IMG/VR virus record: IMGVR_UViG_3300043436_002559
Coordinates: 1-37,596 of that record
Strand: one strand, 5' to 3'
DNA from: a virus
Length of the DNA: 37,596 nucleotides
Shown piece by piece: positions 1 through 37,596 of the stretch. Made by a program: the position numbers and the translations under genes. How positions within the stretch are numbered: position 1 is the first letter of the stretch; the number at the start of each line of letters is the position of its first letter. The notes beneath the pieces were generated by a model. It was not told the DNA's origin. It saw nothing but the letters and a program-made list of their open reading frames with translations, and ran no database searches.

Positions 1-1057
1 ATATTTTAAACATTCCTTTGTCGTAACTTGTCGCAGGTGGTGCGCTGGTTGCCCAGCTAAGCGGCTTTTGTGCCGTGTCGCTCTTTGTTTTTTCCTCTAC
101 TTTCTTTTTGCTCGTAAAGGTGTAAGCATCCGCACCGCCTAACCTATTAAGCCAGTGCAAGCGAACCGTTCGCTCATTGCAGCACTCAACCACTTTGTAC
201 ATATATTTTACTCCGTGTAATACGAAAGTTGAAGGGAGCGTCAAATTTCCAGCTTGTATTGAATAATAATATCCAGTCGGAATACCCGTCATTGGATTGC
301 TCGGTGTCATTGTAGTAGCCTGCAGCTGTTGGATGCCTGCTCCGATTGTGCGAGGTGTAAGCGTCGAGCCTGGAGTAATTTGAATAAAGCCAGCGGTGCC
401 GACCACGTTTTGATTAGCATCATAAACAATAACCCTCAGCGCATTTGTAGTGCTGCTCGGTACGTATGACATTGTCAAATTTTCACCGCTGCAAATAGGG
501 ATTGGGTTGTTTGTTTTTGTGGTTGCAGTTGGATAAACACTTCTTTGATTAGTCAAAAAATAGCGATCATAAACGCCTCCGACCGTTGGATTGTCAATAA
601 TATAACTATTCATACTCATATTATTCCAGTTCCTTGTTTGGCGTGTTCCTGCGATTGCAGGGTAACCAGTGCTCACCGTGTCAGTTGTTACAAATTGCGT
701 CAATAGCCCCGTTGTTGGATCATTGTAGTAATAGCTAACTATAATCCCGACCCTCGTATGAATGTCAGCACTTGCAACCTCATAAGCAGCATTTAAAGTA
801 TTTAGAAAGACCGTTGTTTTTTGCTGACCTTTCGGTGCGCTGTATGTCTGCAATACCTTTGCCACGTCAAACACAAAATAATAAGTCGTTCCGATATTAT
901 AGGCTGGAGCTTTCTGCATTGATGTAACCCCAACACCGTCCACAACTATCGAAGCCTGAGCCAAAACAAGTGGGTCGGAGCTTGTCATTGACATAACAAA
1001 AACATTGGGTCTATACTGCGAGTTAAGCGTAAAGAGCGGAGCTGTTACAAGTGCCAT
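1..1057 (-). CDS. Tail protein, variable middle (copy 1, 3' end cut off)
   Basis: Start ATG at 1057; the reading frame stays open to base 1, so the C-terminus lies outside the window. It is the twin of the complete 418-residue gene at 34389-35645. The first ~145 residues (starting MALVTAPLFTLNSQYRP) and the part from the CCNER motif onward (RLHWLNRLGGADAYTF) are nearly identical in both copies, while the stretch between them, roughly residues 148-285, is largely different. The gene lies just downstream of tail-completion genes and, on a circular map, upstream of the large tail protein at 32232-34388. That context supports a distal tail or tail-tip role. No enzymatic motif is visible. The variable middle could be an exposed domain; this is inference. 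Confidence 0.75.
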   Translation of the reverse strand, partial: MALVTAPLFTLNSQYRPNVFVMSMTSSDPLVLAQASIVVDGVGVTSMQKAPAYNIGTTYYFVFDVAKVLQTYSAPKGQQKTTVFLNTLNAAYEVASADIHTRVGIIVSYYYNDPTTGLLTQFVTTDTVSTGYPAIAGTRQTRNWNNMSMNSYIIDNPTVGGVYDRYFLTNQRSVYPTATTKTNNPIPICSGENLTMSYVPSSTTNALRVIVYDANQNVVGTAGFIQITPGSTLTPRTIGAGIQQLQATTMTPSNPMTGIPTGYYYSIQAGNLTLPSTFVLHGVKYMYKVVECCNERTVRLHWLNRLGGADAYTFTSKKKVEEKTKSDTAQKPLSWATSAPPATSYDKGMFKI

Positions 1058-1059
1058 AT

Positions 1060-1371
1060 TTATTTATTTAATAGGTCGTTTGCCTCTGGATCGTTAGCCA
1101 CATTAGCGTTGAAATTATTGATAAACCCCTCGTCTGTCTGAGCCCCTGCGCTTTGAGTTTTTATTGAAACCCTGACCACCGCAAATTGTCCGCTCGTATT
1201 TGCCGCCTCGTATTTTGTTTTATAGACAAGAGGGTAAAGAATAACATTGTAAAGCTTTTCCGCTGCATTGCTCCAAAAAGTATAAACAGAGTATGTCAAA
1301 TTTGTATTGCCAGCCGTTGAAAGCTGTCTATTAAGATCGTCTTTTAATTGTGTTGCTTGTTCGAGTGTCAT
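1060..1371 (-). CDS. Conserved tail-module protein, 103 aa (copy 1)
   Basis: Complete small gene with an ATG start (1369-1371) that overlaps the stop of the upstream gp10-like gene. Its stop lies two bases before the ATG of the next tail gene. The protein starts MTLEQATQLKDDLNRQL and has no signal peptide or membrane segment. The twin at 35648-35959 differs at about eight residues, most of them clustered in residues 8-23, with the rest almost invariant. I do not recognise the family. Position between a gp10-like protein and a tail protein suggests a tail terminator or tail-completion role; this is a guess from gene order. Confidence 0.8.
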   Translation of the reverse strand: MTLEQATQLKDDLNRQLSTAGNTNLTYSVYTFWSNAAEKLYNVILYPLVYKTKYEAANTSGQFAVVRVSIKTQSAGAQTDEGFINNFNANVANDPEANDLLNK

Positions 1372-1913
1372 TGCTCAAAATATTTAATTTTTAGTGAATT
1401 TGAATTTTTCTTTTTTACCTCTGCAAAGCTGCTTAAAAACATCACATTTATAACTTTTGTAAGAGCCTCCGATATAAGCGCCTCAACCTCGTCCGAACTT
1501 TCCTTTATACCTTTTTCAACTGCTCCCGTCTTACCGTCCAGAGGCATTCCGAATTTTTTGTGCTTTCGAGCTATTGCAAAAGCGATCCGCTCCGCCTCCT
1601 TATCATTGGCATTAAATCGGAGTTTTGCATACATTTTAAGACCGTCAATATATTTTGAACTCTTCGCCCCTGAGCCTGGACTAAATGGAATGCGATTTGC
1701 GGGAACTCCATAGTTTAAAATCATACCATAGTCAAGTAAAGTAAACTCAATAAAGGCACTTGTGACCGTCGCATTTACGCTGTAATCAATCGAATTAACC
1801 AAAGCGCTAGTAAGGTTTCGCCCCTGCATAATAAAGGCTTGCTTGACCGCTTTTTTTACGACCTCTCCGACCTGCTCCCCCAGCCTTTGATATATGTCTT
1901 GTGTGTCTGTCAT
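1368..1913 (-). CDS. HK97 gp10-like head-tail/tail completion protein (copy 1)
   Basis: 181 residues, ATG start inside an ATGA overlap with the upstream gene. The N-terminus has the amphipathic start typical of gp10-like proteins (GEQVGEVVKKAVKQA), followed by a YGMILNYGVPANRIPFSPGS loop and a basic helical region (AIARKHKKFGMPLDGKTG) that resembles the minor tail/neck proteins of siphoviruses. The twin at 35956-36501 differs by only four residues (all in the first 35) despite many silent DNA changes, so the protein is under strong purifying selection. The family assignment rests on pattern resemblance and position. Confidence 0.7.
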   Translation of the reverse strand: MTDTQDIYQRLGEQVGEVVKKAVKQAFIMQGRNLTSALVNSIDYSVNATVTSAFIEFTLLDYGMILNYGVPANRIPFSPGSGAKSSKYIDGLKMYAKLRFNANDKEAERIAFAIARKHKKFGMPLDGKTGAVEKGIKESSDEVEALISEALTKVINVMFLSSFAEVKKKNSNSLKIKYFEQ

Positions 1914-2764
1914 AAAATTGTAATAGAATTGCTTATTGCGCTTCCTGACCCTGCTATATTAGTAGCTGTTACCTTGCAGGTTATTGTTTCGCCTGAGTCA
2001 ATCAATTGAGTTGTGTACTCGCTCGTAGTTTCGCCTGAAATGTCAATACCGTTTCTTTTCCATTGATAACTGTATGTTATTGGAATAGTTCCAGACCATA
2101 CCCCTTCATCAGTTACTTTTAAAAGAGTACCAACAATATTACTTCCGCCTATTGTCGGAGGGGTTGTATTAAAAGGAGCTAAAAATATAGTATTTTCATA
2201 GTCAATTGTTAGCGGTGGCATATCATCATAAGGAGCAGGAAGTCCCGCAACATTTACCGTATCGGTCGGACAATCCCAAACATACCAAAGGTTAAAAGCC
2301 ACATCTACCAATACTAAATTTTCGTTGTGAGCGTCCGAAAGATAGTCTATTGTGATCGGGTTCTGTATGCCTGCGCTCATTCCGTTGGCTGGTATCCTCG
2401 CTATCCTATTAAACTCTGATATAATGTTTATCGCAAGCGCTTCCATTTCCGCCTGAGCCTCAATTATTGACTGATTGATATAGCTGCCGTCGTTCTCATA
2501 ATATTGTGGTCTACTAATAACCAACCTGCAGCGTAAATTGCCCTTAACTGATTTTTCTTTTACCTCAATTGTAGCTGTCGGGTACATAAATTGCACCGCA
2601 GGATATAGCCTCCCGAGTGCATTGTCTCCAGTCCAGTTGTTCGAAATATTGGCGTTTATATCTGAGTACCAACCGTAGTGATAAAAGCCAATACGCCCCG
2701 CTGTTTGTTGGTTTATCCCGATGCAAACAACATTAAAAAGATTTGATATCTGGACTATATTCAT
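1910..2764 (-). CDS. Tail-module protein with C-terminal Ig-like domain
   Basis: 284 residues. Residues 1 to about 190 match the twin protein at 36505-37116 (203 aa). Residues ~205-284 are found only here and look like an Ig-like beta-sandwich: TYSYQWKRNGIDISGET followed by DSGETITCKVTATNIAGSG, with the W and C of the classical core. Such Ig domains are common accessory domains on phage capsid and tail proteins, where they are thought to aid surface adhesion. The N-terminal part has no motif I recognise; its place before the gp10-like gene suggests a tail completion or terminator role. Start ATG overlaps the stop of the small membrane protein gene upstream. Confidence 0.75.
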   Translation of the reverse strand: MNIVQISNLFNVVCIGINQQTAGRIGFYHYGWYSDINANISNNWTGDNALGRLYPAVQFMYPTATIEVKEKSVKGNLRCRLVISRPQYYENDGSYINQSIIEAQAEMEALAINIISEFNRIARIPANGMSAGIQNPITIDYLSDAHNENLVLVDVAFNLWYVWDCPTDTVNVAGLPAPYDDMPPLTIDYENTIFLAPFNTTPPTIGGSNIVGTLLKVTDEGVWSGTIPITYSYQWKRNGIDISGETTSEYTTQLIDSGETITCKVTATNIAGSGSAISNSITIL

Positions 2765-2934
2765 AAACTATTGTGAAATTTTGAGCCCGACCAACCGAGC
2801 AAAAATAGTAATATTGCGCTTACTGCCTTAACTATATCTCCGCCTGCAAAAATTGCAATAATTAGCGCTCCCGATCCAAAGATACAACTAATTAAAATAA
2901 TACTATTCAATAGAACTTTTGGATTAACTCTCAT
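2761..2934 (-). CDS. Small two-helix membrane protein, 57 aa (copy 1)
   Basis: Short gene with ATG at 2934 and a stop that overlaps the next ATG. The product starts MRVNPKVLLNSI and contains two hydrophobic segments, about residues 9-30 (IILISCIFGSGALIIAIFAG) and 34-47 (VKAVSAILLFLLGW), joined by a short GGD turn, with a short hydrophilic tail. It follows the tail-chaperone frameshift product at once. The twin at 37113-37286 keeps the length and both helices, with substitutions mainly in the first helix. Function unknown; a small phage membrane protein such as a holin-like or superinfection factor is possible but unsupported. Confidence 0.75.
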   Translation of the reverse strand: MRVNPKVLLNSIILISCIFGSGALIIAIFAGGDIVKAVSAILLFLLGWSGSKFHNSL

Positions 2935-2936
2935 TT

Positions 2937-3892
2937 TTACGATTTTTTACTGTGAACTTCTGATAATCTTTTTTGATAATCCGCCTCCGCTTTGCAGGCT
3001 GCTAAATATGTGAAAGCCTCGTATAAATCCGCCTGCTCTGCTGACTGTAATGGCGTGAGCGTTGGTTGGTTAAATATTCCACTTTCCGCAATTGATTTAA
3101 GCGTTAAATACCAACCGAAACTGTCGTTTAATTTTTCGATGCCTGCTTTTCTCTCATCAAATCCTGAGCTGCCATATAAATTTGCATATTTTGTTGAGAT
3201 ATTTCGCTTCGTTTCAGCAAAAAAAAAGCAACCTTTAGGCAATTTTCTAAGTTCCAAGACATAAACATCTCCTCCCTTTTGAGCAGTTTGTCGCTGTACA
3301 TTTCGCCCTCCTTTCGTACCAATACACACATAATTTTAGCCAGTGCACCCCAATTGCCATTATCCAGAGCTTTGAGATTAGCTTCGAACTGCGATGCCTC
3401 TGCAAACTCAATTAACGTGCTTTTTTCCATATATCGCATAGGTAAATACCAAAGCTCACCATCTACCATTATGACATTAGTATATTCTGGCTCCTCATAT
3501 TTATTCATTATTCGAATAATATTCGAGTAAAGGTACTCCAATTGCCCCACGTTCATACCCTCGCCGTGCTTCCCTCCACCGAGTATAACTTCCTCCGATA
3601 TGCCCACCGCAAAGTGAGCAACTACCCTCGCAAAGTACGGATAAACCTTTCTGTACATCACAACGTCGTCGCAAGCGTGGACCGCCTCGTCAAATTCCTT
3701 CCAAGCTTTCTCTTTTTCCTGCTCAGTCTCAGCGCTATTTCTCGCAATTGATGCCGCCTCAATACGTTTGAACTCTGCTGGCATTGTAGGCTCGACAAAG
3801 GTCATAAAGTCGATATACTGCTTTAAGGTTATGTCCGCAAGTTCGGAGGGGAAAGTGAATGATCCGCCTTTCGATATGCTTATATTATACAT
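2937..3892 (-). CDS. Tail assembly chaperone, -1 frameshift product (gpGT-like)
   Basis: Predicted long product of about 318 residues made when ribosomes reading the 254-aa frame slip back one base on a run of nine T (minus strand; bases 3227-3219). The zero frame reads GCT TTT TTT TTG, giving a T TTT TTT slippery heptamer; after the slip, reading continues TTT GCT GAA in the -1 frame to the stop at 2937, adding 94 residues. The -1 frame stays open upstream to 3329, giving an overlap of about 200 bases. This is the arrangement of the G and GT proteins of lambda-like phages, where both products help assemble the tail around the tape measure. The second copy keeps the run of nine. Confidence 0.75.
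3128..3892 (-). CDS. Tail assembly chaperone, short form (gpG-like)
   Basis: 254 residues, ATG at 3892, overlapping the end of the upstream 108-aa gene by eight bases. The protein is mainly helical, with a beta-like start (ISISKGGSFTFPSEL) followed by a region resembling phage tail chaperones (TLKQYIDFMTFVEP). It carries no enzymatic motif. In siphoviruses the short chaperone is made in excess over the frameshifted form and binds the tape measure during tail assembly. The assignment rests mainly on the overlapping -1 frame and the slippery T run near its 3' end, and on its place in a tail module. On a linear reading the tape measure is far away, but on a circular map it is downstream. Confidence 0.7.
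   Translation of the reverse strand: MYNISISKGGSFTFPSELADITLKQYIDFMTFVEPTMPAEFKRIEAASIARNSAETEQEKEKAWKEFDEAVHACDDVVMYRKVYPYFARVVAHFAVGISEEVILGGGKHGEGMNVGQLEYLYSNIIRIMNKYEEPEYTNVIMVDGELWYLPMRYMEKSTLIEFAEASQFEANLKALDNGNWGALAKIMCVLVRKEGEMYSDKLLKREEMFMSWNLENCLKVAFFLLKRSEISQQNMQIYMAAQDLMREKQASKN
3219..3227 (-). other. Slippery run of nine T: programmed -1 frameshift site
   Basis: On the coding strand the sequence is GTTGC followed by nine T and GCTGAAACG. In the zero frame this is T TTT TTT TTG, an ideal X XXY YYZ heptamer. Slipping there fuses the 254-aa frame to the downstream -1 frame. The run is conserved at 37571-37579 in the divergent second copy. Confidence 0.75.
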
Positions 3893-11121: not shown

Positions 11122-11150
11122 AAGCCCCACAAAATGCAGGGCTTTTTTTT
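11122..11150 (+). terminator. Hairpin with T run in plus direction before the methyltransferase
   Basis: AAGCCC (11122-11127) pairs with GGGCTT (11139-11144) around an 11-base loop, followed by eight T on the plus strand. In the minus direction the hairpin precedes only TTAAATTTAT, and it falls in the gap between the Gp157-like gene and the methyltransferase start. It therefore points against the known transcription of this region. Confidence 0.6.
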
Positions 11151-11628
11151 ATCGAATATTGAGCGAGTAATTTTCTACAATCAAAGCTCCTTGCACTTCC
11201 TGACCGCTCTCGAGTGCTTCCTTAATAGCTGTCTTGTTTGGCTCTGTCTTAATGCGCAAAAATTCAGCTCCTAACAAACTTTCATCCGTGATGCTTACTG
11301 ACTTACTTTTGCGGCTCGATATTGTCACAAATGCCGTTTTAATTTGACCGTGAGCAACAACTGACTCGAGTAGTCTGTCGGCTAATTTGTCGGCTGAGTT
11401 TTCGTAGCGTTTCGCCAGATCCTGCAAACGCTTTGCTTCCGCCTTGATCATCTCTGACTGAGACTTTAATTGCTTAATGACATAGACATAGCCCTCGCCC
11501 TTAGTAAGTCGCTCAGACTCGGAAATTTCGAGTGCTGCTTCCAGCTCTGGAGTCATCTCGCCTCCGTTGTTTTCAATTTGGCTGTATACTTCGTAAAGTT
11601 CAGCGTCGATGTTAAATAGGTTTTTCAT
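11149..11628 (-). CDS. Siphovirus Gp157-like protein
   Basis: 159 residues from the ATG at 11628. The frame is open upstream to 11745, but that extension overlaps the 63-aa gene and lacks the family; the ATG at 11628 gives MKNLFNIDAELYEVYSQIEN, follows the AAACCTTAT leader and starts the Gp157 family pattern. Further on: TPELEAALEI, a helix ending YVYVIKQLKSQSEMIKAEAK, and the C-terminal RKSKSVSITDE...EFLRIKTEPNKTAIKEALE typical of Gp157. In Streptococcus phages this family has been linked to phage resistance; its molecular role is unclear. It is usually found with recombination and SSB genes. Confidence 0.85.
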   Translation of the reverse strand: MKNLFNIDAELYEVYSQIENNGGEMTPELEAALEISESERLTKGEGYVYVIKQLKSQSEMIKAEAKRLQDLAKRYENSADKLADRLLESVVAHGQIKTAFVTISSRKSKSVSITDESLLGAEFLRIKTEPNKTAIKEALESGQEVQGALIVENYSLNIR

Positions 11629-11668
11629 AAAATAAGGTTTTAAAAATTTAAAAAAATATTGAGGTTTG

Positions 11669-11685
11669 TCGGATGCCTCTCCCCG
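11669..11685 (-). promoter_or_regulatory. Intercistronic CGGGGAG...GCATCCG element before Gp157-like gene
   Basis: Minus strand reads CGGGGAGAGGCATCCGA, about 8 bases after the stop of the 63-aa gene. The ends CGG and CCG can pair. The nearly identical CGGGGAGCAGCATCCGA occurs before the ERF gene at 16862-16846, also just after the stop of a small first gene, and both are followed by an A/T tract and AAACCTTAT before the ATG. Confidence 0.6.
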
Positions 11686-11692
11686 TTGTTTT

Positions 11693-11884
11693 TTATACAA
11701 ATATTCCTGCATCCCAAAGTGAGCGCAAAAAATTGTGATGCTCATTGATTACTTTATTTAAAGCATTATTTCTTTTAATCCAAAAACCGTATGGAGCTTT
11801 TTCAGAGTTAACATCGATTTTTTCCAATTTTGAAATAGCTTTTTCCATTGCTTCAAGTTTTTTAACTGCTTCGATAGTTGTCAT
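11693..11884 (-). CDS. Unknown small protein, first gene of operon, 63 aa
   Basis: ATG at 11884, 51 bases downstream of the -7 box of the promoter cassette. The product is helical and Lys-rich (MTTIEAVKKLEAMEKAI, then WIKRNNALNKVINEHHNFL). No known family. The same arrangement (promoter cassette, small first gene, hairpin, second gene) is present at 17.2 kb and 28.2 kb, where the first genes encode unrelated proteins of 99 and 73 aa. A role as an early host-takeover peptide or as a leader gene is possible but unsupported. Confidence 0.7.
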   Translation of the reverse strand: MTTIEAVKKLEAMEKAISKLEKIDVNSEKAPYGFWIKRNNALNKVINEHHNFLRSLWDAGIFV

Positions 11885-11928
11885 AATAAAAGGTTTTTTG
11901 TGTGATTGTTAATTGCTTTCTGAATAAC

Positions 11929-11950
11929 TTGATACAAAGATAGAACTACT
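11929..11950 (-). promoter_or_regulatory. Promoter cassette, copy 3 (Gp157/methyltransferase operon)
   Basis: Minus strand carries AGTAGTTCTATCTTTG then TATCAA. The -7 box TATCTTTG is at 11942-11935. About 30 bases upstream a TTGnnAAAA element is shared with copies 1 and 2, and the distance to the first ATG (about 51 bases) is also kept. The 125-base gap 11885-12009 holds nothing else I can identify. Confidence 0.75.
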
Positions 11951-12009
11951 TTTTATATTTTTACTCTTTTACCAAAAATATTTTTCGAAAATGTGATTTT
12001 TTTTTCTGT

Positions 12010-15708: not shown

Positions 15709-15742
15709 AAACCTTATTTTATGACTGTCGAATTTAAGTTCG

Positions 15743-15798
15743 CTGCTACTCAAACGTAAATTCTATACGCAAATATAGAAATAATTTTCTAAATCAAA
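15743..15798 (-). promoter_or_regulatory. Promoter and antiterminator arm of the initiator leader
   Basis: Minus strand shows TTTG (15798-15795), a 17-base spacer and TATATTTG (15777-15770), a good Bacteroidota promoter. Transcription would start near 15764. The next 8-base element AGTAGCAG (15750-15743) is complementary to CTGCTACT in the terminator loop (15686-15679). Confidence 0.6.
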
Positions 15799-16249
15799 GT
15801 GTTTTTTCAAAAAAATCTTTCAGATCCTGAGTAATTACAACCCTTTGCAGGATAGCCGCCGCCATTAGCTGTTTAGTTAATTTCAGCCTTCCGATGTTAC
15901 TGCCAATCTTTCGCCTACTTTCGGGCAATAACTGGACGCATATTTTCCTAAGCTCTTGCAATTCCTTCGCCTGCCAGTCGGGAGCCGACCTCCGCCAATT
16001 TTTGCAGTAAGCAGCCAAAAGCATAGCGCAAAGATCCCTTTTATTGTGTCCTTTTTCCTCGCCTTTTTTCGGACGCCCTGCATTGATGCCAGAGGAATAA
16101 ACACCTATTGCGTCGCTGGCTTCATCTGTAAGCATAACAGTAAGCGATCTGACGTTATCCAACGCCTCCCTTTCGGGAAGCGCTGGGTTAGTAATCTTTT
16201 CAAGGGTGATATGCACCGAGTCAGTATTTTTTAAGATAGTGAATTTCAT
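15794..16249 (-). CDS. Unknown protein, 151 aa, in recombination operon
   Basis: ATG overlaps the stop of the ERF gene (ATGA). The N-terminus is beta-rich (MKFTILKNTDSVHITLEKI). A segment with INAGRPKKGEEKGHNKRD, then a helix-rich C-terminal half (DWQAKELQELRKICVQLLPE) follows. No family recognised. The promoter for the next operon lies partly within its 3' end. Position directly after ERF suggests a role in recombination or replication. Confidence 0.75.
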   Translation of the reverse strand: MKFTILKNTDSVHITLEKITNPALPEREALDNVRSLTVMLTDEASDAIGVYSSGINAGRPKKGEEKGHNKRDLCAMLLAAYCKNWRRSAPDWQAKELQELRKICVQLLPESRRKIGSNIGRLKLTKQLMAAAILQRVVITQDLKDFFEKTL

Positions 16250-16809
16250 AAGTTATTTTCGATAAATTGTTTTTGTTCTTTTGTAAGCTCAAATAAATCT
16301 AAGTAGGTGTCTTGTTTCTCTGGGTTATTTATAAGCCATCCTAACAACTTTTGAAGCTCCTCGATAGTATTTACTTTCTTCTTAGGTTTAAGTTGCTCAG
16401 ATTTGATTTTAGACCCTTGTCCATCGTCGTCAGCATCTACTGAAATTCCCAGCATTGCAGAAATAGCATAGCGCTTCGCATAGGTAATGCCGCCCCCGAG
16501 CTCCTGCAGCGCATTTGTGCCCTTGTTTCCGCTCATCGGGTGGAATGGCATATCAGTCTGGATATATTGCCCTGAGACGTGGTAAATAGTTGTAACAAGA
16601 TAATCGCCAGCCAATGCCTGCACAATCACTAAACCGTGCTTTGTGAGGATCGGGCGCACTGTGTTGAGGATATTATCCAAAGTCAAATATTTGTTCCTCA
16701 GGTGCTCGTTTTTTCCGTCCTTAATGAGCTTAGTATTTTGAAATTCTAAGTTAAAATTAACCATTGCTAAAATAAGATCTGCAATGTTTTCAGTTTGTTT
16801 GTAGTTCAT
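16246..16809 (-). CDS. erf: ERF-family single-strand annealing protein
   Basis: 187 residues. The hallmark of the ERF superfamily is present: ALQELGGGITYAKRYAISAM followed by LGISVDADDDGQ (~100-131), preceded by a beta region (TTIYHVSGQYIQTDMPFHP). These proteins anneal complementary single strands to circularise or recombine phage DNA, working with SSB. The C-terminal ~55 residues (after QGSKIKSEQLKPKKK) are helical and may be the oligomerisation or SSB-binding part. It follows the intercistronic hairpin and the AAACCTTAT leader in the operon driven by promoter cassette 2. Confidence 0.93.
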   Translation of the reverse strand: MNYKQTENIADLILAMVNFNLEFQNTKLIKDGKNEHLRNKYLTLDNILNTVRPILTKHGLVIVQALAGDYLVTTIYHVSGQYIQTDMPFHPMSGNKGTNALQELGGGITYAKRYAISAMLGISVDADDDGQGSKIKSEQLKPKKKVNTIEELQKLLGWLINNPEKQDTYLDLFELTKEQKQFIENNL

Positions 16810-16845
16810 AAAAATAAGGTTTTGAAATTAAAAAAATGCAGTTGA

Positions 16846-16862
16846 TCGGATGCTGCTCCCCG
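16846..16862 (-). promoter_or_regulatory. Intercistronic CGGGGAG...GCATCCG element before erf
   Basis: Minus strand reads CGGGGAGCAGCATCCGA, 7 bases after the stop of the 99-aa gene. It differs at two of 17 bases from the element before the Gp157-like gene (11685-11669), and both are followed by an A/T-rich tract and AAACCTTAT a few bases before the ATG. Confidence 0.6.
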
Positions 16863-16869
16863 ATTTATG

Positions 16870-17169
16870 TTAATAACCTCTATCGTAAAACATTTGATTT
16901 TCATCGTCAATAATACGATCTATTTTCTCGAGCGAATATCTGTCCTCGTTTTTTAATTTTGGTACTACTTTTTTGATTGCCTTTCCAGTAAGCTCCTGAA
17001 TTTGCAATAATTCGGTGTGAGTAATTTCATAAAGCTCAATAATTGACCTAATGCTTTGTTCGTCATTTTCTGCCAATGCGATAAATAAGTTAAGAATTGC
17101 ATTTGATACCTCGTTTTGAGTATAAGCGCATCCCCAAATAAGTCTGTGATAAATTTTTAAAGTTTTCAT
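16870..17169 (-). CDS. Unknown protein, first gene of replication operon, 99 aa
   Basis: ATG at 17169, 50 bases after the promoter -7 box, with an AAACCTTATAATT leader. The protein starts MKTLKIYHRLIWGCAYTQNE and is helical and acidic (LFIALAENDEQSIRSIIELY), with a basic stretch in KAIKKVVPKLKNED. No known family. Its place, promoter and leader match the first genes at 11.9 and 28.2 kb. Confidence 0.75.
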   Translation of the reverse strand: MKTLKIYHRLIWGCAYTQNEVSNAILNLFIALAENDEQSIRSIIELYEITHTELLQIQELTGKAIKKVVPKLKNEDRYSLEKIDRIIDDENQMFYDRGY

Positions 17170-17212
17170 AATTATAAGGTTTAAAGTGTAAAAAATTCGC
17201 TTTGTTTGTAAC

Positions 17213-17234
17213 TTGATACAAAAATAGAACTACT
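17213..17234 (-). promoter_or_regulatory. Promoter cassette, copy 2 (replication operon)
   Basis: Minus strand has AGTAGTTCTATTTTTG then TATCAA; -7 box TATTTTTG at 17226-17219. A TTGnnAAAA element starts 31 bases upstream, as in copies 1 and 3. It lies in the 169-base gap 17170-17338, after the BhlA-like gene. A weak 6-7 bp hairpin (TAAAAG...CTTTTA) lies near 17300-17325, too short to call a terminator. Confidence 0.75.
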
Positions 17235-17338
17235 TTTTTTAATAAAAAAGCTTTTGACAATATTTTTTTTCAAGATGTGAATATTTTTTTTGTCTAAAGC
17301 TCAAAAGTGCGATAAAAGCGTCCTTTTACCCCCTCGAT

Positions 17339-19940: not shown

Positions 19941-20576
19941 TTAGTAAAATAAAATATTAGTTGAAGTATTTTTTTTCGTCTCGCACGTATGGCAGTGCTT
20001 GCCAGTCATATTAAAATAGCCACATCCGCAATCTGTATGGCAGTGCCCACAATCGTCCTCGCACGGGCAATTTTTAGCGTCAAACAAAGGCAAAAGCGTC
20101 TTATTAGCACAAAGGAAGTTTTCAATCAGTGGCTTTAAATTATCAATCCTTTGCATCATATTATCTTGCAGGAAGCGCACACCATTAACCCCAGCATTTT
20201 GAGCGAACTCGCTGTCATTTTGATAAATTCCCTTTGAACTAACTTGAATAGTCAAATAAGGCAATACTTCATAATAAACAGCATAGGCAGTATACCTAAG
20301 CAAAAAGTCAGTCCAAAGCGTTTCATATATCGCAGGAGCGGGAGCTATAAATTTATTGACAATTGCCCCGACAGCTGGATTGTAATTGCTCTCTAATGGG
20401 TTTTGTTGCAAAATCATATCATTGTATAAGGCAACGCCCAAAAGTGGCTGTAAAAACCTTTCCTCGCTGTCCTTAATGTGCGGGCTTATTTGATTAACAT
20501 CAAAGCGAGCCGTAACTGGAGCAGGTCGATAAATTCCAGTGTTGACAACTTCGCCTGGCTTAATTAGTGTTTGCAT
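19941..20576 (-). CDS. Head-tail connector-like protein with Cys-rich tail
   Basis: 211 residues following the portal gene, overlapping it by 17 bases. Residues ~1-150 are helical (DSEERFLQPLLGVALYNDMI, YETLWTDFLLRYTAYAVYYE) and resemble adaptor/connector proteins of Bacteroidota phages. The last ~45 residues hold ten Cys and several His: NCPCEDDCGHCHTDCGCGYF and KHCHTCETKK, a strong metal-binding candidate. That tail is unusual for a connector and would suit Zn or Fe-S binding. Alternatively the protein is a capsid component with a metal-binding anchor. Connector assignment rests on order and general shape. Confidence 0.65.
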   Translation of the reverse strand: MQTLIKPGEVVNTGIYRPAPVTARFDVNQISPHIKDSEERFLQPLLGVALYNDMILQQNPLESNYNPAVGAIVNKFIAPAPAIYETLWTDFLLRYTAYAVYYEVLPYLTIQVSSKGIYQNDSEFAQNAGVNGVRFLQDNMMQRIDNLKPLIENFLCANKTLLPLFDAKNCPCEDDCGHCHTDCGCGYFNMTGKHCHTCETKKNTSTNILFY

Positions 20577-21951
20577 TTTCTGTATTTATTTGCTCTTGTT
20601 CTATTTGTTGAAACCCTAACTCCGCGCGCATCTCGTCAACGGTCAAAATATCTTTAATCGGAATATCCCCAGCAAAAGATACTGGCATTGGCTTCGCTAT
20701 ATCGACCGCAATATTTGACCAGTCAAAGCCTAACCATTTTGCAGCGTCCTGAATAACTGGATTTAGGAACTTTGTTAAATATAGCCTTTGCATTGGACGT
20801 ATGACAGTATTATAAACTATGTCGAACTCTGAGCGGATCTGCTGGTTAGTTCCTAAGCTGCCCGCAGTTCTCAATCCCGTGAGCGACACCGACCAACGAT
20901 GTGCCGCAATGATATTAGTCTGAGCCATATTTTGTAAATTCAAAAATTCGCCCTCGTTGCTGCTATTCAAAACTTGAACGTCACTTTTATAAGTCGGATC
21001 TCTTAAAGCCTGAATAAACATTTTAGAGTTGTTCCCAGTGCCCGTGAAACAATCTTTCATTGCTCGGACTACTTGTTGAGCTTCCTCTTGATTGGCTGAG
21101 CCAAACAACGAAATAATAGCCGAAGGAGTGAAACCATTTTCGAACTTTGATTGGTTGAATTTTGGTATTCTATACTCAAGTTCCGCCCAGATCTTAGCGC
21201 TCACCCAGTCAGGAATACCCCAATAAACAAGTGTCGGCTCATAATTTTTTAAATGTACGATTGACTTTTCAACCCCTCCGATTTTCTCAAAAACTGGAAA
21301 GATAGGTAAGTCAGTCACATTTTGCGGAGTGATCTCCCACGCCTCTTCGAATTCGTCCGACACACCTATATGAGTAGGATAAATACTATCTTTTGCAGCC
21401 TTTCGAGGTCGGCACCAGTTAATCGGTAAGCAGCGCAAATAATATTTTTTTGTCTGACCTACTTTAATCCTTTGAACTTCGATAAAGGCATTGCCAAAGC
21501 TCGCAAAATCTTTGCAAATTTTAGCTGTAAGTTCCTCGACATTCAACCCCTCTGGAGTTAATAAAGTAAGCCAATCATTTAAAGACTGGATCTGCTCCTC
21601 AGTTATTTCCTGAGCCTCTGCCTTTGCTGTTTTTAAACTTGCAAGCATTGACATTGTAGCAGCGGGTACCGTATAAAAGCCATCACCACCGAAATAATTA
21701 ACTTTTTGCTGAATAATGCCTGCAGTGGTCGGGCTATTGTTACAAATTGCCTGCAATCGGTCGAGCCTGCAAAGGTCATAAGTCGAAAAGGGTACATATT
21801 CCCAGACCGTACGATCTAAAATTTCCTTAGTCGGCTCCCGAAAAATGTCGTCCACTTTAAACGGATGCACTCCCGAATTGAGAGAGCCCCACGCGTAAAC
21901 GTCTGTTTTTGGCTTATTTTCGCCCGATATAACGGCTTTTCTTCTACTCAT
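20560..21951 (-). CDS. Phage portal protein (HK97-type)
   Basis: 463 residues with the portal layout: an N-terminal clip of ~80 residues, LCRLDRLQAICNNSPTTAGI (core helix), SFGNAFIEVQRIKVGQTKKY with YYLRCLPINWCRP, then IVHLKNYEPTLVYWGIPDW and TNIIAAHRWSVSLTG in the wing and tunnel-loop region, and a Gln/Glu/Asn-rich end. Portals form a 12-subunit ring that takes up DNA with the terminase and joins the tail. It overlaps the 66-aa gene upstream by eight bases. Its place downstream of the capsid and tail-tube genes is atypical. Confidence 0.9.
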   Translation of the reverse strand: MSRRKAVISGENKPKTDVYAWGSLNSGVHPFKVDDIFREPTKEILDRTVWEYVPFSTYDLCRLDRLQAICNNSPTTAGIIQQKVNYFGGDGFYTVPAATMSMLASLKTAKAEAQEITEEQIQSLNDWLTLLTPEGLNVEELTAKICKDFASFGNAFIEVQRIKVGQTKKYYLRCLPINWCRPRKAAKDSIYPTHIGVSDEFEEAWEITPQNVTDLPIFPVFEKIGGVEKSIVHLKNYEPTLVYWGIPDWVSAKIWAELEYRIPKFNQSKFENGFTPSAIISLFGSANQEEAQQVVRAMKDCFTGTGNNSKMFIQALRDPTYKSDVQVLNSSNEGEFLNLQNMAQTNIIAAHRWSVSLTGLRTAGSLGTNQQIRSEFDIVYNTVIRPMQRLYLTKFLNPVIQDAAKWLGFDWSNIAVDIAKPMPVSFAGDIPIKDILTVDEMRAELGFQQIEQEQINTENANTN

Positions 21952-27404: not shown

Positions 27405-27436
27405 AAAAATAAGGTTTTAAAAATGATAAAAAGTGT

Positions 27437-27883
27437 TTAGAAAGGAAGTTCATCGACATACTCGACCAACTTCGCCAATATTTTTCTTTGGAGTTCGTGC
27501 TCACCTGCATTCATATACTCCGCAGCCTCTGCAACGTCTTGCTTTTTGTGACCGTTGACTTTAAGCTCAGTTATAAAATGCTTAGTTGTCATATTGACAA
27601 ACAACTCGTCTGGGTGCTTAAAAAAGTCTGCTCTAACTTCGACGCAATACTCCCAGCCTGATGCATAATGATAAAATAATACTTCGCTATGTTTAATGTC
27701 TGGGGCGATCAGTCTGTCTCTGGGTATAAAGTGCCGCAAATTTTCGCCTTTGTAAGTGTACTCAATAATAGCACGTTTGTTGAGGCTTTTTTCGTGTGTC
27801 AGCTCGACAACCTTAACAAAAAGTAATTGATTGCTGTAGCCAGTTTCGAGCGAGTGGTGTGTGATTTCTGCGAATGCAAACAT
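27437..27883 (-). CDS. Unknown protein, 148 aa
   Basis: ATG at 27883 with an AAACCTTAT leader and an upstream hairpin. Sequence is mixed alpha/beta: MFAFAEITHHSLETGYSNQL, then KRAIIEYTYKGENLRHFIPR and an acidic end (AGEHELQRKILAKLVEYVDE). No recognised family, no signal or membrane segment. Second gene of the operon of cassette 1; its neighbours are lysis-associated. Confidence 0.75.
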   Translation of the reverse strand: MFAFAEITHHSLETGYSNQLLFVKVVELTHEKSLNKRAIIEYTYKGENLRHFIPRDRLIAPDIKHSEVLFYHYASGWEYCVEVRADFFKHPDELFVNMTTKHFITELKVNGHKKQDVAEAAEYMNAGEHELQRKILAKLVEYVDELPF

Positions 27884-27910
27884 AGAAATAAGGTTTTTAA
27901 GTTTTAAAAA

Positions 27911-27937
27911 TTCGGTTTTGTAGGCTTACCGAAAACC
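27911..27937 (-). promoter_or_regulatory. Intercistronic hairpin before the 148-aa gene
   Basis: Minus strand TTCGGT (27933-27928) can pair with ACCGAA (27916-27911), or GGTTTT (27937-27932) with AAAACC (27919-27914); the two are mutually exclusive. It follows the stop of the 73-aa gene by ten bases, at the same place as the CGGGGAG elements in the other two operons. Confidence 0.5.
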
Positions 27938-27946
27938 TTTGATGTT

Positions 27947-28168
27947 TTAGTTAAGTTTTAATCCGTATTCTTGTGGGTTATCAATCATATAAATTGCAGA
28001 TTCTAAAGCATTTTTCTTTGAATAACTATAATCGTCAACATTGCCGTTGTTAATTTGGGAATACCACAAATTATTATCAAAATCGGTTTTGCAAATTTTA
28101 ATTTCTTGTCCTTTGTATTCAGTTACATAATAACCTGAAGCTAATTTTTTCATTTTTAAAGTTGTCAT
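27947..28168 (-). CDS. Unknown protein, first gene of lysis operon, 73 aa
   Basis: ATG at 28168, 52 bases downstream of the promoter -7 box; a second ATG five codons later (MKKLASGYY) is also possible. The product has beta-like strands (MKKLASGYYVTEYKGQEIKI) and a helical Ser/Ala-rich end (YSYSKKNALESAIYMI). No known family. Same place as the first genes at 11.9 and 17.2 kb. Confidence 0.72.
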   Translation of the reverse strand: MTTLKMKKLASGYYVTEYKGQEIKICKTDFDNNLWYSQINNGNVDDYSYSKKNALESAIYMIDNPQEYGLKLN

Positions 28169-28213
28169 AATCTTAGTTTTTTAAAGTTTTAAATAATTCT
28201 CTTTCGTTTTATG

Positions 28214-28235
28214 TTGATACAAAGATAGAACTACT
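28214..28235 (-). promoter_or_regulatory. Promoter cassette, copy 1 (lysis operon)
   Basis: Minus strand has AGTAGTTCTATCTTTG then TATCAA; -7 box TATCTTTG at 28227-28220. A TTGnnAAAA element begins 31 bases upstream as in the other two copies. It lies in the 131-base gap 28169-28299, after the tail genes. Confidence 0.75.
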
Positions 28236-28299
28236 TATTTAATAAAAAAACATTTTAGCAAAAAACTTTCTTGAAATTGTAATTTTTTTTTCATTTCGC

Positions 28300-34388: not shown

Positions 34389-35645
34389 TTAGTTTGATTG
34401 TACGCTTATATAATTAGCCTCAACAAATTGGACCACCACGTTTAAAAGTTGGTCGTTTTCGCTTAGTGTTATCTTGCTGTCCTGAATTACAACTGCAATA
34501 AGTCCGTCGCTCGTTTCCATATAAACCTCTGGACTACTTAATAACTCAGCTATCCAAGCGCCCTCCGCCTCGCTATAAAAAGAGCTTTCAACTTCATACT
34601 CTTTCGTCACTTCCTGAAATATTTTAAACATTCCTTTGTCGTAACTTGTCGCAGGTGGTGCGCTGGTTGCCCAGCTAAGCGGCTTTTGTGCCGTGTCGCT
34701 CTTTGTTTTTTCCTCTACTTTCTTTTTGCTCGTAAAGGTGTAAGCGTCCGCCCCGCCTAACCTATTAAGCCAGTGTAAGCGAACTCGCCTTTCATTGCAG
34801 CAATCAATTTTTCTATATACTCTACCTTCCGAAGCCTCAATAAAAAGCCAATTGCCTGCAATTAAATAAGCATTTCCGATGTAAATACGATATTCTGCTA
34901 AGGTAGGATCTGACATATTTACTGATCCGTCGAAATAGGTTTGAGTTGCAAGATTAACCATACCAACTCCGACCGTTGTGGGCACCAGATTTGTGCTTGG
35001 TGTAATAGAAAAAAGACCGTTATCAATTCCTGCTCCTGCAGAGTCAACCGTTTGAACCCTGACAGCATTGCAAGTGTTTGGGACAAAACTCAAATAAGCG
35101 TTTTCATTTGGGCAAATTGGATAAGCGCTGCCTACTATATTAGGACAATTAGTTAAAAAAGGGCTTAATCCTGAGCCAGTGACCATAATATATCCATTCA
35201 TACCCATATTATTCCAATTCCTTGTTTGTCTGGTTCCTGCGATTGCAGGGTAGCCAGTTGAAACCGTGTCAGTTGTTACAAATTGCGTCAATAATCCAGT
35301 TGTCGGATCATTGTAATAATACGAAACTATAAGCCCGACTCGAGTATGAATGTCAGTATTTGAAGCATTAAAAGGAACTGCCAAAGTATTTGGAAAGACC
35401 GTTGTTTTTTGCTGACCTTTCGGAGCGCTGTATGTCTGCAATACCTTTGCCACGTCAAACACAAAATAATAAGTCGTTCCGATATTATAAGCTGGAGCTT
35501 TCTGCATTGAGGTAACTCCTACACCGTCGACCACTATCGAAGCCTGAGCCAAAACAAGCGGGTCGGAGCTTGTCATTGACATAACAAAAACATTAGGTCT
35601 ATATTGCGAGTTGAGCGTAAAGAGCGGAGCTGTTACAAGTGGCAT
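34389..35645 (-). CDS. Tail protein with variable middle (copy 2, complete)
   Basis: 418 residues, complete. Twin of 1-1057. Residues 1-145 and the CCNER...ADAYTF region onward match the other copy, while ~148-285 are largely different in sequence and length. C-terminal ~120 residues (PPATSYDKGMFKIFQEVTKE to FVEANYISVQSN) are present only here because the other copy is cut off. Between gene 103 aa and the large tail protein, so probably a distal tail or tip protein. The variable middle is a candidate for an exposed, adaptable region. Confidence 0.75.
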   Translation of the reverse strand: MPLVTAPLFTLNSQYRPNVFVMSMTSSDPLVLAQASIVVDGVGVTSMQKAPAYNIGTTYYFVFDVAKVLQTYSAPKGQQKTTVFPNTLAVPFNASNTDIHTRVGLIVSYYYNDPTTGLLTQFVTTDTVSTGYPAIAGTRQTRNWNNMGMNGYIMVTGSGLSPFLTNCPNIVGSAYPICPNENAYLSFVPNTCNAVRVQTVDSAGAGIDNGLFSITPSTNLVPTTVGVGMVNLATQTYFDGSVNMSDPTLAEYRIYIGNAYLIAGNWLFIEASEGRVYRKIDCCNERRVRLHWLNRLGGADAYTFTSKKKVEEKTKSDTAQKPLSWATSAPPATSYDKGMFKIFQEVTKEYEVESSFYSEAEGAWIAELLSSPEVYMETSDGLIAVVIQDSKITLSENDQLLNVVVQFVEANYISVQSN

Positions 35646-35647
35646 AG

Positions 35648-35959
35648 CTATTTATTTAATAGGTCGTTTGCCTCTGGGTCGTTAGCCACATTAGCATTAA
35701 AATTATTTATAAAGGCTTCGTCTGTCTGAGCCCCTGCACTTTGAGTTTTAATTGAAACCCTGACCACCGCAAATTGTCCGCTCGTGTTTGCTGCCTCGTA
35801 CTTTGTTTTATAGACAAGTGGGTAAAGAATAACATTGTAAAGCTTTTCCGCTGCATTGCTCCAAAAAGTATAAACCGAATATGTTAAATTTCTATTGCCT
35901 GCCTTTTCAAGCTGCTCATTGAGATCGTTTTTTAATTTTGTTGCTTGTTCGAGTGTCAT
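35648..35959 (-). CDS. Conserved tail-module protein, 103 aa (copy 2)
   Basis: Twin of 1060-1371. ATG at 35959. It differs at a few N-terminal residues (KLKNDLNEQLEKAGNRN versus QLKDDLNRQLSTAGNTN) and at one later site (EAFIN versus EGFIN); the rest is unchanged. Its stop lies two bases before the ATG of the tail protein gene. Function unknown. Confidence 0.8.
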   Translation of the reverse strand: MTLEQATKLKNDLNEQLEKAGNRNLTYSVYTFWSNAAEKLYNVILYPLVYKTKYEAANTSGQFAVVRVSIKTQSAGAQTDEAFINNFNANVANDPEANDLLNK

Positions 35960-36501
35960 TGCTCAAAATATTTAATTTTTAGTGAATTTGAATTTTTCTT
36001 TTTTACCTCTGCAAAGCTGCTTAAAAACATTACATTTATAACTTTTGTCAGTGCCTCCGAAATAAGCGCCTCAACCTCGTCCGAACTTTCCTTAATACCT
36101 TTTTCAACTGCTCCAGTCTTACCGTCTAAAGGCATCCCGAACTTTTTGTGCTTTCGAGCTATTGCAAAAGCGATCCGCTCCGCCTCCTTATCATTGGCAT
36201 TAAATCGGAGTTTTGCATACATCTTTAAACCGTCAATATATTTCGAACTTTTCGCCCCTGATCCTGGACTAAATGGAATGCGATTTGCTGGAACTCCATA
36301 GTTTAAGATCATACCATAGTCGAGCAGAGTAAACTCGATAAAGGCACTTGTGACCGTCGCATTTACGCTGTAATCAATCGAATTAACCAGAGCGCCAGTT
36401 AATGTCCGCCCCTGCATAATAAAGGCTTGTTTGACCGCTTTTTTTACGACCTCACCGACCTGCTCCCCTAGCCTTTGATATATGTCTCTTGTTTCTGTCA
36501 T
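35956..36501 (-). CDS. HK97 gp10-like tail completion protein (copy 2)
   Basis: Twin of 1368-1913; differs in about four residues (MTETRDIYQ versus MTDTQDIYQ, RTLTGALVN versus RNLTSALVN) out of 181 while the DNA carries many silent changes. Same gp10-like features as copy 1. The ATG here does not overlap the upstream stop, because the upstream protein ends earlier. Confidence 0.7.
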   Translation of the reverse strand: MTETRDIYQRLGEQVGEVVKKAVKQAFIMQGRTLTGALVNSIDYSVNATVTSAFIEFTLLDYGMILNYGVPANRIPFSPGSGAKSSKYIDGLKMYAKLRFNANDKEAERIAFAIARKHKKFGMPLDGKTGAVEKGIKESSDEVEALISEALTKVINVMFLSSFAEVKKKNSNSLKIKYFEQ

Positions 36502-36504
36502 TTT

Positions 36505-37116
36505 TTAAGGAGTTGGAGGTGGTGGAAATACTGGCGGAAGTTGCTTTTCTAAGTCAGTTGTCAAAGGTGGTAAATTGTCATAAGGATCTGGAAGCCCTGC
36601 AATATCGACAACATCTGTCGGACAATCCCAAACGTACCAAAGATTAAAAGCCACATCTACTAATACTAAATTTTCATTGTGAGCGTCACTCAAATAGTCG
36701 ATTGTGATCGGGTTCTGTATGCCTGCGCTCATTCCGTTAACTGGCAACCTCGCAATCCTATTAAACTCTGATATAATGTTTATTGCAAGCGCCTCCATTT
36801 CAGCCTGAGCCTCAATTATTGACTGATTGATATAGCTACCGTCGTTCTCATAATATTGCGGTCTACTAATTACCAACCTGCAGCGTAAATTGCCCTTGAC
36901 CGATTTTTCTTTTACCTCGATTGTCGCTGTTGGGTACATAAATTGCACCGCAGGATATAGCCTCCCGAGTGCATTGTCGCCAGTCCAGTTGTTGGAAATA
37001 TTGGCGTTTATATCTGAGTACCAACCGTAATGGTAAAAGCCAATACGCCCCGCTGTTTGTTGGTTTATTCCGATGCAAACAACATTAAAAAGATTTGATA
37101 TCTGGACTATATTCAT
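36505..37116 (-). CDS. Tail-module protein without Ig domain, Pro-rich end
   Basis: 203 residues. Same N-terminal ~190 residues as the 284-aa twin, ending instead in EKQLPPVFPPPPTP. The missing Ig-like domain is replaced by this short Pro-rich tail. It shows that the Ig domain is an optional module in this gene. Start ATG overlaps the stop of the small membrane protein gene upstream, as in copy 1. Confidence 0.78.
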   Translation of the reverse strand: MNIVQISNLFNVVCIGINQQTAGRIGFYHYGWYSDINANISNNWTGDNALGRLYPAVQFMYPTATIEVKEKSVKGNLRCRLVISRPQYYENDGSYINQSIIEAQAEMEALAINIISEFNRIARLPVNGMSAGIQNPITIDYLSDAHNENLVLVDVAFNLWYVWDCPTDVVDIAGLPDPYDNLPPLTTDLEKQLPPVFPPPPTP

Positions 37117-37286
37117 AAACTATTGTGGAATTTTGCGCCCATCCAACCGAGCAAAAAAAGTAATATTGCGCTCACCGCCTTAACTATATCCCCGCCTGCA
37201 AAAATTGCAATAATTAGCGCCAGCGTTCCAAAGATACAACTTATTAGAACTATTGAGTTCAAAAATACTTTTGGATTAACTCTCAT
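37113..37286 (-). CDS. Small two-helix membrane protein, 57 aa (copy 2)
   Basis: Twin of 2761-2934: ATG at 37286, stop overlapping the next ATG. Starts MRVNPKVFLNSIVLISCIFG; same two hydrophobic segments and the same length, with a handful of substitutions in and near the first helix and one Gly-Trp-Met site near the end. Conservation of length and reading frame in two diverged copies supports a real gene. Confidence 0.78.
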   Translation of the reverse strand: MRVNPKVFLNSIVLISCIFGTLALIIAIFAGGDIVKAVSAILLFLLGWMGAKFHNSL

Positions 37287-37288
37287 TT

Positions 37289-37596
37289 TTACGATTTTTT
37301 ACTGTAAACTTCTGATAATCTTTTTTGATAATCCGCCTCCGCTTTGCAGGCTGCTAAATATGTGAAAGCCTCGTATAAATCCGCTTGCTCTGCTGATTGT
37401 AATGGCGTGAGCGTTGGCTGGTTAAATATTCCGCTTTCTGCAATTGATTTTAATGTCAGGTACCATCCAAAACTGTCGTTTAATTTTTCGATGCCTGCTT
37501 TTCTCTCATCAAATCCTGAGCTGCCATATAAATTTGCATATTTTGTTGAGATATTTCGCTTCGTTTCAGCAAAAAAAAAGCAACCTTTAGGCAATT
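37289..37596 (-). CDS. Tail assembly chaperone, 3' part (copy 2, cut at window end)
   Basis: Partial. The -1 frame runs 37289-37596; the zero frame, the end of the 254-aa form, stops at 37480-37482. The same slippery run of nine T (37579-37571) and the same -1 extension are present, with one substitution near the end (VYSKKS versus VHSKKS). The 5' part is missing because the window ends here; it is supplied at 3243-3892 on a circular map. Confidence 0.7.
   Translation of the reverse strand, partial: LPKGCFFFAETKRNISTKYANLYGSSGFDERKAGIEKLNDSFGWYLTLKSIAESGIFNQPTLTPLQSAEQADLYEAFTYLAACKAEADYQKRLSEVYSKKS

Follow-up and report, generated by a model that had tools for sequence, protein, structure and literature searches.

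The organization of three operons in this viral DNA raises the question of what the short CGG..CCG element following their first genes represents, and which of the two neighboring genes it serves. The window analyzed here comprises one entire IMG/VR virus record (37,596 nt), in which nearly all genes are located on the minus strand. As the original prediction had stated, each of three promoter cassettes leads into an operon that opens with a small ORF, and the three encoded proteins (99, 63, and 73 aa) belong to no known family. The assignment of two of the second genes to erf and Gp157 was confirmed by Pfam. The features of the operons are listed in Table 1.

The ends of the record, 1-3200 and 34619-37596, repeat each other at an offset of ~34.6 kb, with 91-95% identity in three aligned blocks, and related gene sets are found at both of them (103 aa, 181 aa, 284/203 aa, and 57 aa). 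This looks like either a circular genome that was closed on a divergent variant of the strain or a genuine duplication of part of the sequence.

Table 1. Features of the cassette operons in the window, with supporting evidence.
Feature	Position	Strand	Evidence or remark
Promoter cassettes, repeat family D4	17180-17290, 11896-12006, 28181-28291	-	
-7 promoter element TATTTTTG, operon 2	17219..17226	-	consensus TAnnTTTG, PMC6847099
-7 promoter element TATCTTTG, operon 1	11935..11942	-	
-7 promoter element TATCTTTG, operon 3	28220..28227	-	
First gene of operon 2, 99-aa protein, no known family	16870..17169	-	
First gene of operon 1, 63-aa protein, no known family	11693..11884	-	
First gene of operon 3, 73-aa protein, no known family	27947..28168	-	
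TAA stop of operon-2 first gene (16872-16870) and 7-nt spacer to copy 1	16863..16872	-	
TAA stop of operon-1 first gene (11695-11693) and 7-nt spacer to copy 2	11686..11695	-	
Pseudoknot copy 1, CGGGGAGCAGCATCCGATCAACTGCA	16837..16862	-	sequence; pair counts over 44 distinct copies
Helices of copy 1	S1 16862-16860/16849-16847; S2 16856-16853/16841-16838	-	S1 CGG/CCG; S2 GCAG/CTGC
Pseudoknot copy 2, CGGGGAGAGGCATCCGACAAACCTCA	11660..11685	-	sequence; variant identical in L013, L065
Helices of copy 2	S1 11685-11683/11672-11670; S2 11679-11676/11664-11661	-	S2 compensated, GAGG/CCTC
Third junction, AGGTTTTCGGTAAGCCTACAAAACCGAA then TTTTT	27911..27938	-	recurs in four relatives
Second gene of operon 2, ERF-family ssDNA-annealing protein	16246..16809	-	PF04404, E 4e-22; phrog_2324, E 4.4e-35
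Second gene of operon 1, Gp157 family (phrog_253, Mu Gam-like end protection)	11149..11628	-	PF05565, E 3.5e-30
Second gene of operon 3, 148-aa protein of unknown family	27437..27883	-	
Start-proximal motif AAACCTTAT	16814..16822, 17174-17182, 11632-11640, 27409-27417, 27888-27896	-	

A pseudoknot behind the first genes

The hairpin proposed earlier behind the stop codons of the first genes does occur in the window, in two copies, but it is not the whole element. The CGG..CCG stem (S1) is one helix of an H-type pseudoknot of ~26 nt, and the second helix (S2), which had been missed, is formed by a loop word, GCAG or GAGG, that pairs with CTGC or CCTC shortly 3'. Both window copies lie on the minus strand (16862-16837 and 11685-11660). 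The exact CGGGGAGNNGCATCCG element was found twice (16847-16862 and 11670-11685), each time 7 nt past a TAA, and with up to three mismatches allowed there were three matches against 0.63 expected. The core of copy 1, CGGGGAGCAGCATCCGA (16862-16846, minus strand), is located 7 nt past the TAA of the 99-aa ORF, and the core of copy 2, CGGGGAGAGGCATCCGA (11685-11669), also begins 7 nt past a TAA. Copy 1 reads CGG GGA [GCAG] CAT CCG ATCAA [CTGC] A, where the brackets mark the two strands of S2. The corresponding junction also has a pseudoknot in the relatives L067, L045, L026, L219, and L005/L054.

Compared with shuffled sequences, the nested-hairpin folds of the two window copies were not exceptional (z -1.34 and -0.13). 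A nested hairpin as the whole element was rejected because of these weak z-scores and because it leaves S2 out. The isolated helices have a modest stability of -1.6 and -3.5 kcal/mol.

The same element had been expected in all three operons; it is present in two of them, whereas the third has a different, clade-specific structure. At the third junction, either a GGTTT/AAACC hairpin or a pseudoknot of AGG/CCT and TTCGG/CCGAA fits the sequence (nested fold -5.4 kcal/mol, z -0.93), and the structure is found only in the close relatives L232 (G019), L235 (G018), L237 (G004), and L219. It was dropped as a member of the pseudoknot family, since its pairing fits two models and two relatives break S2. 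We regard it as a clade-specific alternative, perhaps one resembling a terminator, with a hairpin and a U-tract. Homologs of the second gene of operon 3 follow a true pseudoknot in L050, L186, L201, L224, and L227.

Covariation and distribution of the family

A scan of IMG/VR with CGGGGAGNNGCATCCGA, in which nothing was demanded downstream, returned 69 loci. A part of these were chance matches in G+C-rich coding DNA; the rest were AT-rich, located just after a stop codon, and followed by the complementary word. In this blind test of S2, the complementary S2' was present in 33 of the 33 AT-rich post-stop matches and in 1 of the 25 other matches after deduplication. Relaxed scans extended the collection to 149 copies in 139 loci, plus a few found later. 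Parts of the consensus were built into several of these scans, hence the importance of the blind tests, in which no pairing was demanded. In the blind test of S1, which required position 15 not to be C, position 2 had changed to match in all real copies returned, namely L136 (U-A), L272 (G-U), and L274/L276/L277 (A-U), all of them paired.

The plan of the element is as follows: S1 (3 bp, variable), GGH, S2 (4 bp, mostly GCAG/CUGC), YAU, S1', the third loop L3, S2', and a final A. The total size is 23-27 nt, and L3 is A-rich, being AnnAA or, in a shorter type B, ACA. The S1 variants comprise CGG/CCG, AGG/CCU, AGU/ACU, UGG/CCA, AUG/CAU, and CAG/CUG, and those of S2 comprise GCAG/CUGC, GAGG/CCUC, GGGG/CCCC, and UUAG/CUGA, with GAAG/CUUC and GUGCG/CGCAC found later. 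Over 44 distinct copies, 98.1% of the cells were paired and both sides had changed in six of the seven pairs, although these pair counts overstate the number of changes, as many contigs are related and the copies are not independent events. The covariation score was 0.283 versus 0.079 in shuffles, none of 500 of which reached it, and a slid alignment gave at most 0.054. The exceptions were an A.A mismatch at pair 1-16 in ~20 copies (AGG/CCA) and one broken S2 pair in 2 of the 44. Thus, covariation, which had been named beforehand as the check on the hairpin, was found and is strong. Compensatory changes in both helices beyond chance indicate that the element is a functional structured RNA of a new family. 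The earlier idea of a regulatory or processing RNA site stands insofar as an RNA structure is supported by covariation; its shape is a pseudoknot, not a hairpin.

The unpaired bases were conserved as well. When GGA and CAT were left free in the scan, GG(A/C/T) and (C/T)AT were recovered in all real copies but one. Bases G4, G5, A12, U13, A20, and A21 of the loops were invariant among the real copies, and position 6 was never G among the 149 copies. Such conservation suggests either a defined three-dimensional fold or a partner that binds the element. The consensus GGGGAGCAGCAU resembles, with one gap, a conserved stretch of 16S rRNA, GGGAGGCAGCAG; mimicry of rRNA is possible, or the likeness is due to chance. 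The shorter type B (..CATC[CT]NACACTGC) has a weaker outer S1 pair. It occurs in L190 (9629-9651), L199 (7005-7027), L203, L217, L230, L248, L261, and L068 (2310-2332), often in the same virus as a normal copy.

No Rfam 15 family matched the element at the gathering score or with a suggestive E-value, and no description of such an element was found in the open papers of PMC. About 150 copies are present in ~140 IMG/VR viral contigs, so that the carriers include the window virus and more than 100 other uncultured viruses. At least two virus groups can be told apart among them, which differ in their terminases and have hardly any structural genes in common. Among the 21 virus records compared, no gene family was common to all, as judged by BLASTP only, which could miss remote homologs. 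A shared viral trans-acting factor is therefore disfavored, and a host factor or a self-sufficient fold appears more likely than a common viral partner. The common pattern matched only once in 84,980 bacterial and archaeal genomes, in a coding sequence, with an estimated ~2 expected by chance; the relaxed type A and type B patterns returned this match and one more, also coding, in 395 Bacteroidota genomes. These bacterial scans used exact patterns covering only the common variants. Short BLAST queries against isolate phages gave only weak partial matches, none of them convincing; IMG/VR has a biased coverage, and there may be a cultured carrier beyond the collections that were searched.

Position of the pseudoknot and its proposed function

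With gene starts and stops taken from a simple ORF caller, the pseudoknot begins 5-9 nt past the stop codon in 117 of 141 copies, and the distance is below 5 nt in none. The stop codon is UAA in 136 of the 141, compared with 450 of 701 long genes (p 8e-18) and 119 of 146 matched gaps (p 5e-5). Given the 5-9 nt spacer, the first base of the pseudoknot would lie at the mRNA entrance of a ribosome terminating on UAA, and the pseudoknot could stay folded. The preceding gene is small and typically promoter-proximal: the TAnnTTTG motif, which is the -7 promoter consensus of Bacteroidota (PMC6847099), was found within 150 nt upstream of it in 95 of 141 copies, versus 9.5% in shuffled sequence. Within the 21 virus records, the motif occurred within 75 nt before 14 of 23 pseudoknot-bearing genes and 96 of 1,114 others (p 1e-9). 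About a third of the copies have no recognizable TAnnTTTG upstream; some of these are located behind a second gene in tandem arrays. At the majority of the remaining same-strand gene junctions in the carrier viruses, no pseudoknot is present. The hosts are probably Bacteroidota, as judged only from the promoter. The best isolate-phage matches of the portal protein of the window virus (20560-21951, minus strand) are in Streptomyces and Rhodococcus phages (~24-25% identity) and not in Bacteroidota phages.

Single-linkage clustering of BLASTP matches divided the neighboring proteins into ~100 upstream and ~95 downstream families. For 47 sampled upstream proteins, three PHROGs families matched with one member each, leaving at least 44 of the 47 without a PHROGs match; among 47 sampled second genes, only ERF and its overlapping recombinase profiles matched more than one. 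ERF was found in only 2 of these 47, and a recombination-specific role is not supported because the second genes are unrelated across viruses.

Several observations tie the element to the first gene and not to the second. In four loci (L190, L198, L199, and the first of two copies in L068), the next gene is preceded by a TAnnTTTG promoter located behind the pseudoknot, giving the order promoter, gene, pseudoknot, promoter, gene in L190 and L068. L230 has two separate operons, each with a promoter, a small gene, a pseudoknot, and a second gene. Homologs of all three second genes of the window, when located behind another gene, had no pseudoknot before them. In G028 (L260/L261), an ordinary terminator hairpin sits 8 nt past the stop of a promoter-led first gene, where other operons have the pseudoknot. 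By these sequence comparisons, the pseudoknot belongs to the 3' side of the first gene. The suggestion that the first gene is a translated leader for the second is not supported, given the second genes' own promoters in the four loci and their homologs without a pseudoknot elsewhere; membership in a class of leader or coupling elements was rejected, as the element is not conserved with the second gene. The G028 genes themselves (minus strand, 16769-17008 and 16064-16312) are promoter-led and small, with ordinary intrinsic terminators close behind: GGGAGGAGCAATCCTCCC followed by T5 at the first of them, the one in the place of the pseudoknot, and AGCCTAC..GTAGGCTTTTTT at the other.

The structure and the position of the element are established at the level of sequence, and from these we infer its function. 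We tentatively favor a cis-acting intercistronic barrier in the mRNA at the 3' side of the first gene, most likely directed against 3'-5' decay. The pseudoknot would act on the message that carries it, at the 3' side of the first gene and as near to the stop codon as a terminating ribosome allows. As a compact barrier, it would stop 3'-5' exonucleases or mark a processed 3' end, and the promoter-proximal gene would be expressed more, or for longer, than the genes behind it. Since the carriers have no viral gene that is common to all of them, the pseudoknot probably needs no partner or relies on one from the host, such as the ribosome or an RNase. The very strong conservation of S2 and the loops exceeds the need of a plain mechanical block and suggests recognition by something. 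The modest stability, the copies with a mismatch at pair 1-16, and the third of copies without a recognizable promoter element count against a barrier. In a broader formulation, which we regard as somewhat unlikely, the element would be a new class of minimal pseudoknot at the edge of the terminating ribosome on promoter-proximal genes, acting via a host factor (ribosome or RNase) to set operon expression; it would have spread among virus lineages that are not related, while cellular genomes make no use of it.

Intercistronic REP elements, for example that of malE-malF, are 3' stabilizers of mRNA and form long hairpins in host chromosomes. Like them, the pseudoknot follows the stop codon of the upstream gene of an operon irrespective of the identity of that gene, and precedes genes expected to be less expressed. 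In contrast to REP, it is a 26-nt pseudoknot with conserved loops, found here in viral records only, and its protection against decay is putative.

The main rival is a role directed at the ribosome, in which contact between the pseudoknot and the ribosome that terminates on UAA would control release, recycling, or re-initiation, thereby coupling the second gene to the first or uncoupling it. The sharp lower limit of the spacing, which matches the downstream edge of the ribosome, the near universality of UAA, and a second-gene start usually 6-35 nt past the element all agree with this. However, the distance to the second gene is loose overall (6-78 nt), in four loci this gene is served by a promoter of its own behind the element, and the element is absent from most other same-strand junctions of the same viruses; we consider such a role unlikely. 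Next comes a binding site for a protein or a small molecule, as in autoregulation of the T4 gene 32 type or in a miniature riboswitch, to which we assign a still smaller probability. Invariant loop bases even with GGH and YAU left free and an S2 that is nearly always GCAG/CUGC would suit a binding site, and H-type pseudoknots of this size are known to bind proteins and ligands. Yet no single gene family occurs in all 21 virus records, the neighboring genes share no function, the element stands after the first gene and not in a 5' leader, and the bacterial matches are chance matches in coding sequence. The small pseudoknot riboswitches preQ1-I and SAM-II are compact H-type folds, and the likeness extends to a conserved A-rich third loop; the present element differs in having no Rfam match, a location outside the 5' leader, and no metabolic gene in common, and the sampled neighbors had no common gene function. 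The T4/T2 gene 32 pseudoknot, a small H-type pseudoknot in the mRNA of a DNA phage like the one described here, is perhaps the only viral example in translational autoregulation (review PMC3014915). It lies ~67 nt upstream of one gene and binds the product of that gene, whereas ~100 different genes precede the present element and no common viral binding protein was found. In its position, the element does not fit the gene 32 type, given ~95 downstream families and no family in all viruses.

A partial terminator or attenuator closing a promoter-gene unit is doubtful. The intrinsic terminator at the same place in G028, the hairpin and U-tract of the third window junction, and the gene order in L190 and L068 speak for it, but a U-tract is missing from most copies (CTGCATTAACAA...), and a strong terminator would silence the majority of the second genes, which are promoterless. 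The class of intrinsic terminators was rejected on the missing U-tract and on the weak nested folds of the window copies. Phage morons consist of a promoter, an ORF, and a terminator; the likeness lies in a small gene of variable identity that is led by its own promoter and closed by a structure, and the difference is that the closing pseudoknot has no U-tract and transcription must mostly go on into the second gene. Programmed recoding, by stop readthrough or frameshifting that fuses the first gene to the second, is highly improbable. Pseudoknots of this kind act in luteovirus frameshifting and MuLV readthrough, and they resemble the present element in size, in an A-rich third loop, and in a position 5-9 nt from the A-site codon; in operon 1, moreover, the Gp157 frame is open back into the first gene. 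Against this, the stops are UAA and there is no shared reading frame: the second-gene frames are even (50/45/40), and the frame is open through the element in 52 of 135 cases versus 94 of 270 other frames.

The pseudoknot is among the smallest mRNA elements supported by covariation and is tied to a position, not to a gene. Should its effect be to shield or partition messages, it would reveal how Bacteroidota phages without Shine-Dalgarno sequences express the genes of one operon unequally. In addition, the small, highly variable, promoter-proximal genes that it marks are good candidates for functions in host takeover or counter-defense.

The motif preceding start codons

The AAACCTTAT motif had been reported before the second-gene ATGs and was found there, 3-4 nt before the ATG; it also stands before a first gene (17174-17182) and before a third (27409-27417), for five minus-strand starts altogether. 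It was dropped as a part of the pseudoknot element, since it precedes first and third genes and is absent from the other virus groups. Judging from these occurrences, the motif is a general one near gene starts of this virus and is not confined to second genes, and it fits the A-rich initiation without a Shine-Dalgarno sequence in this phylum (PMC6847099), to which it may be linked. In addition, AAACCTTATTTTATG occurs on the plus strand at 15709 (15709-15747), opposite the start of the replication-initiator gene; this segment and the start region of the Gp157 gene (11602-11640) form a 39-nt imperfect inverted repeat (74%).
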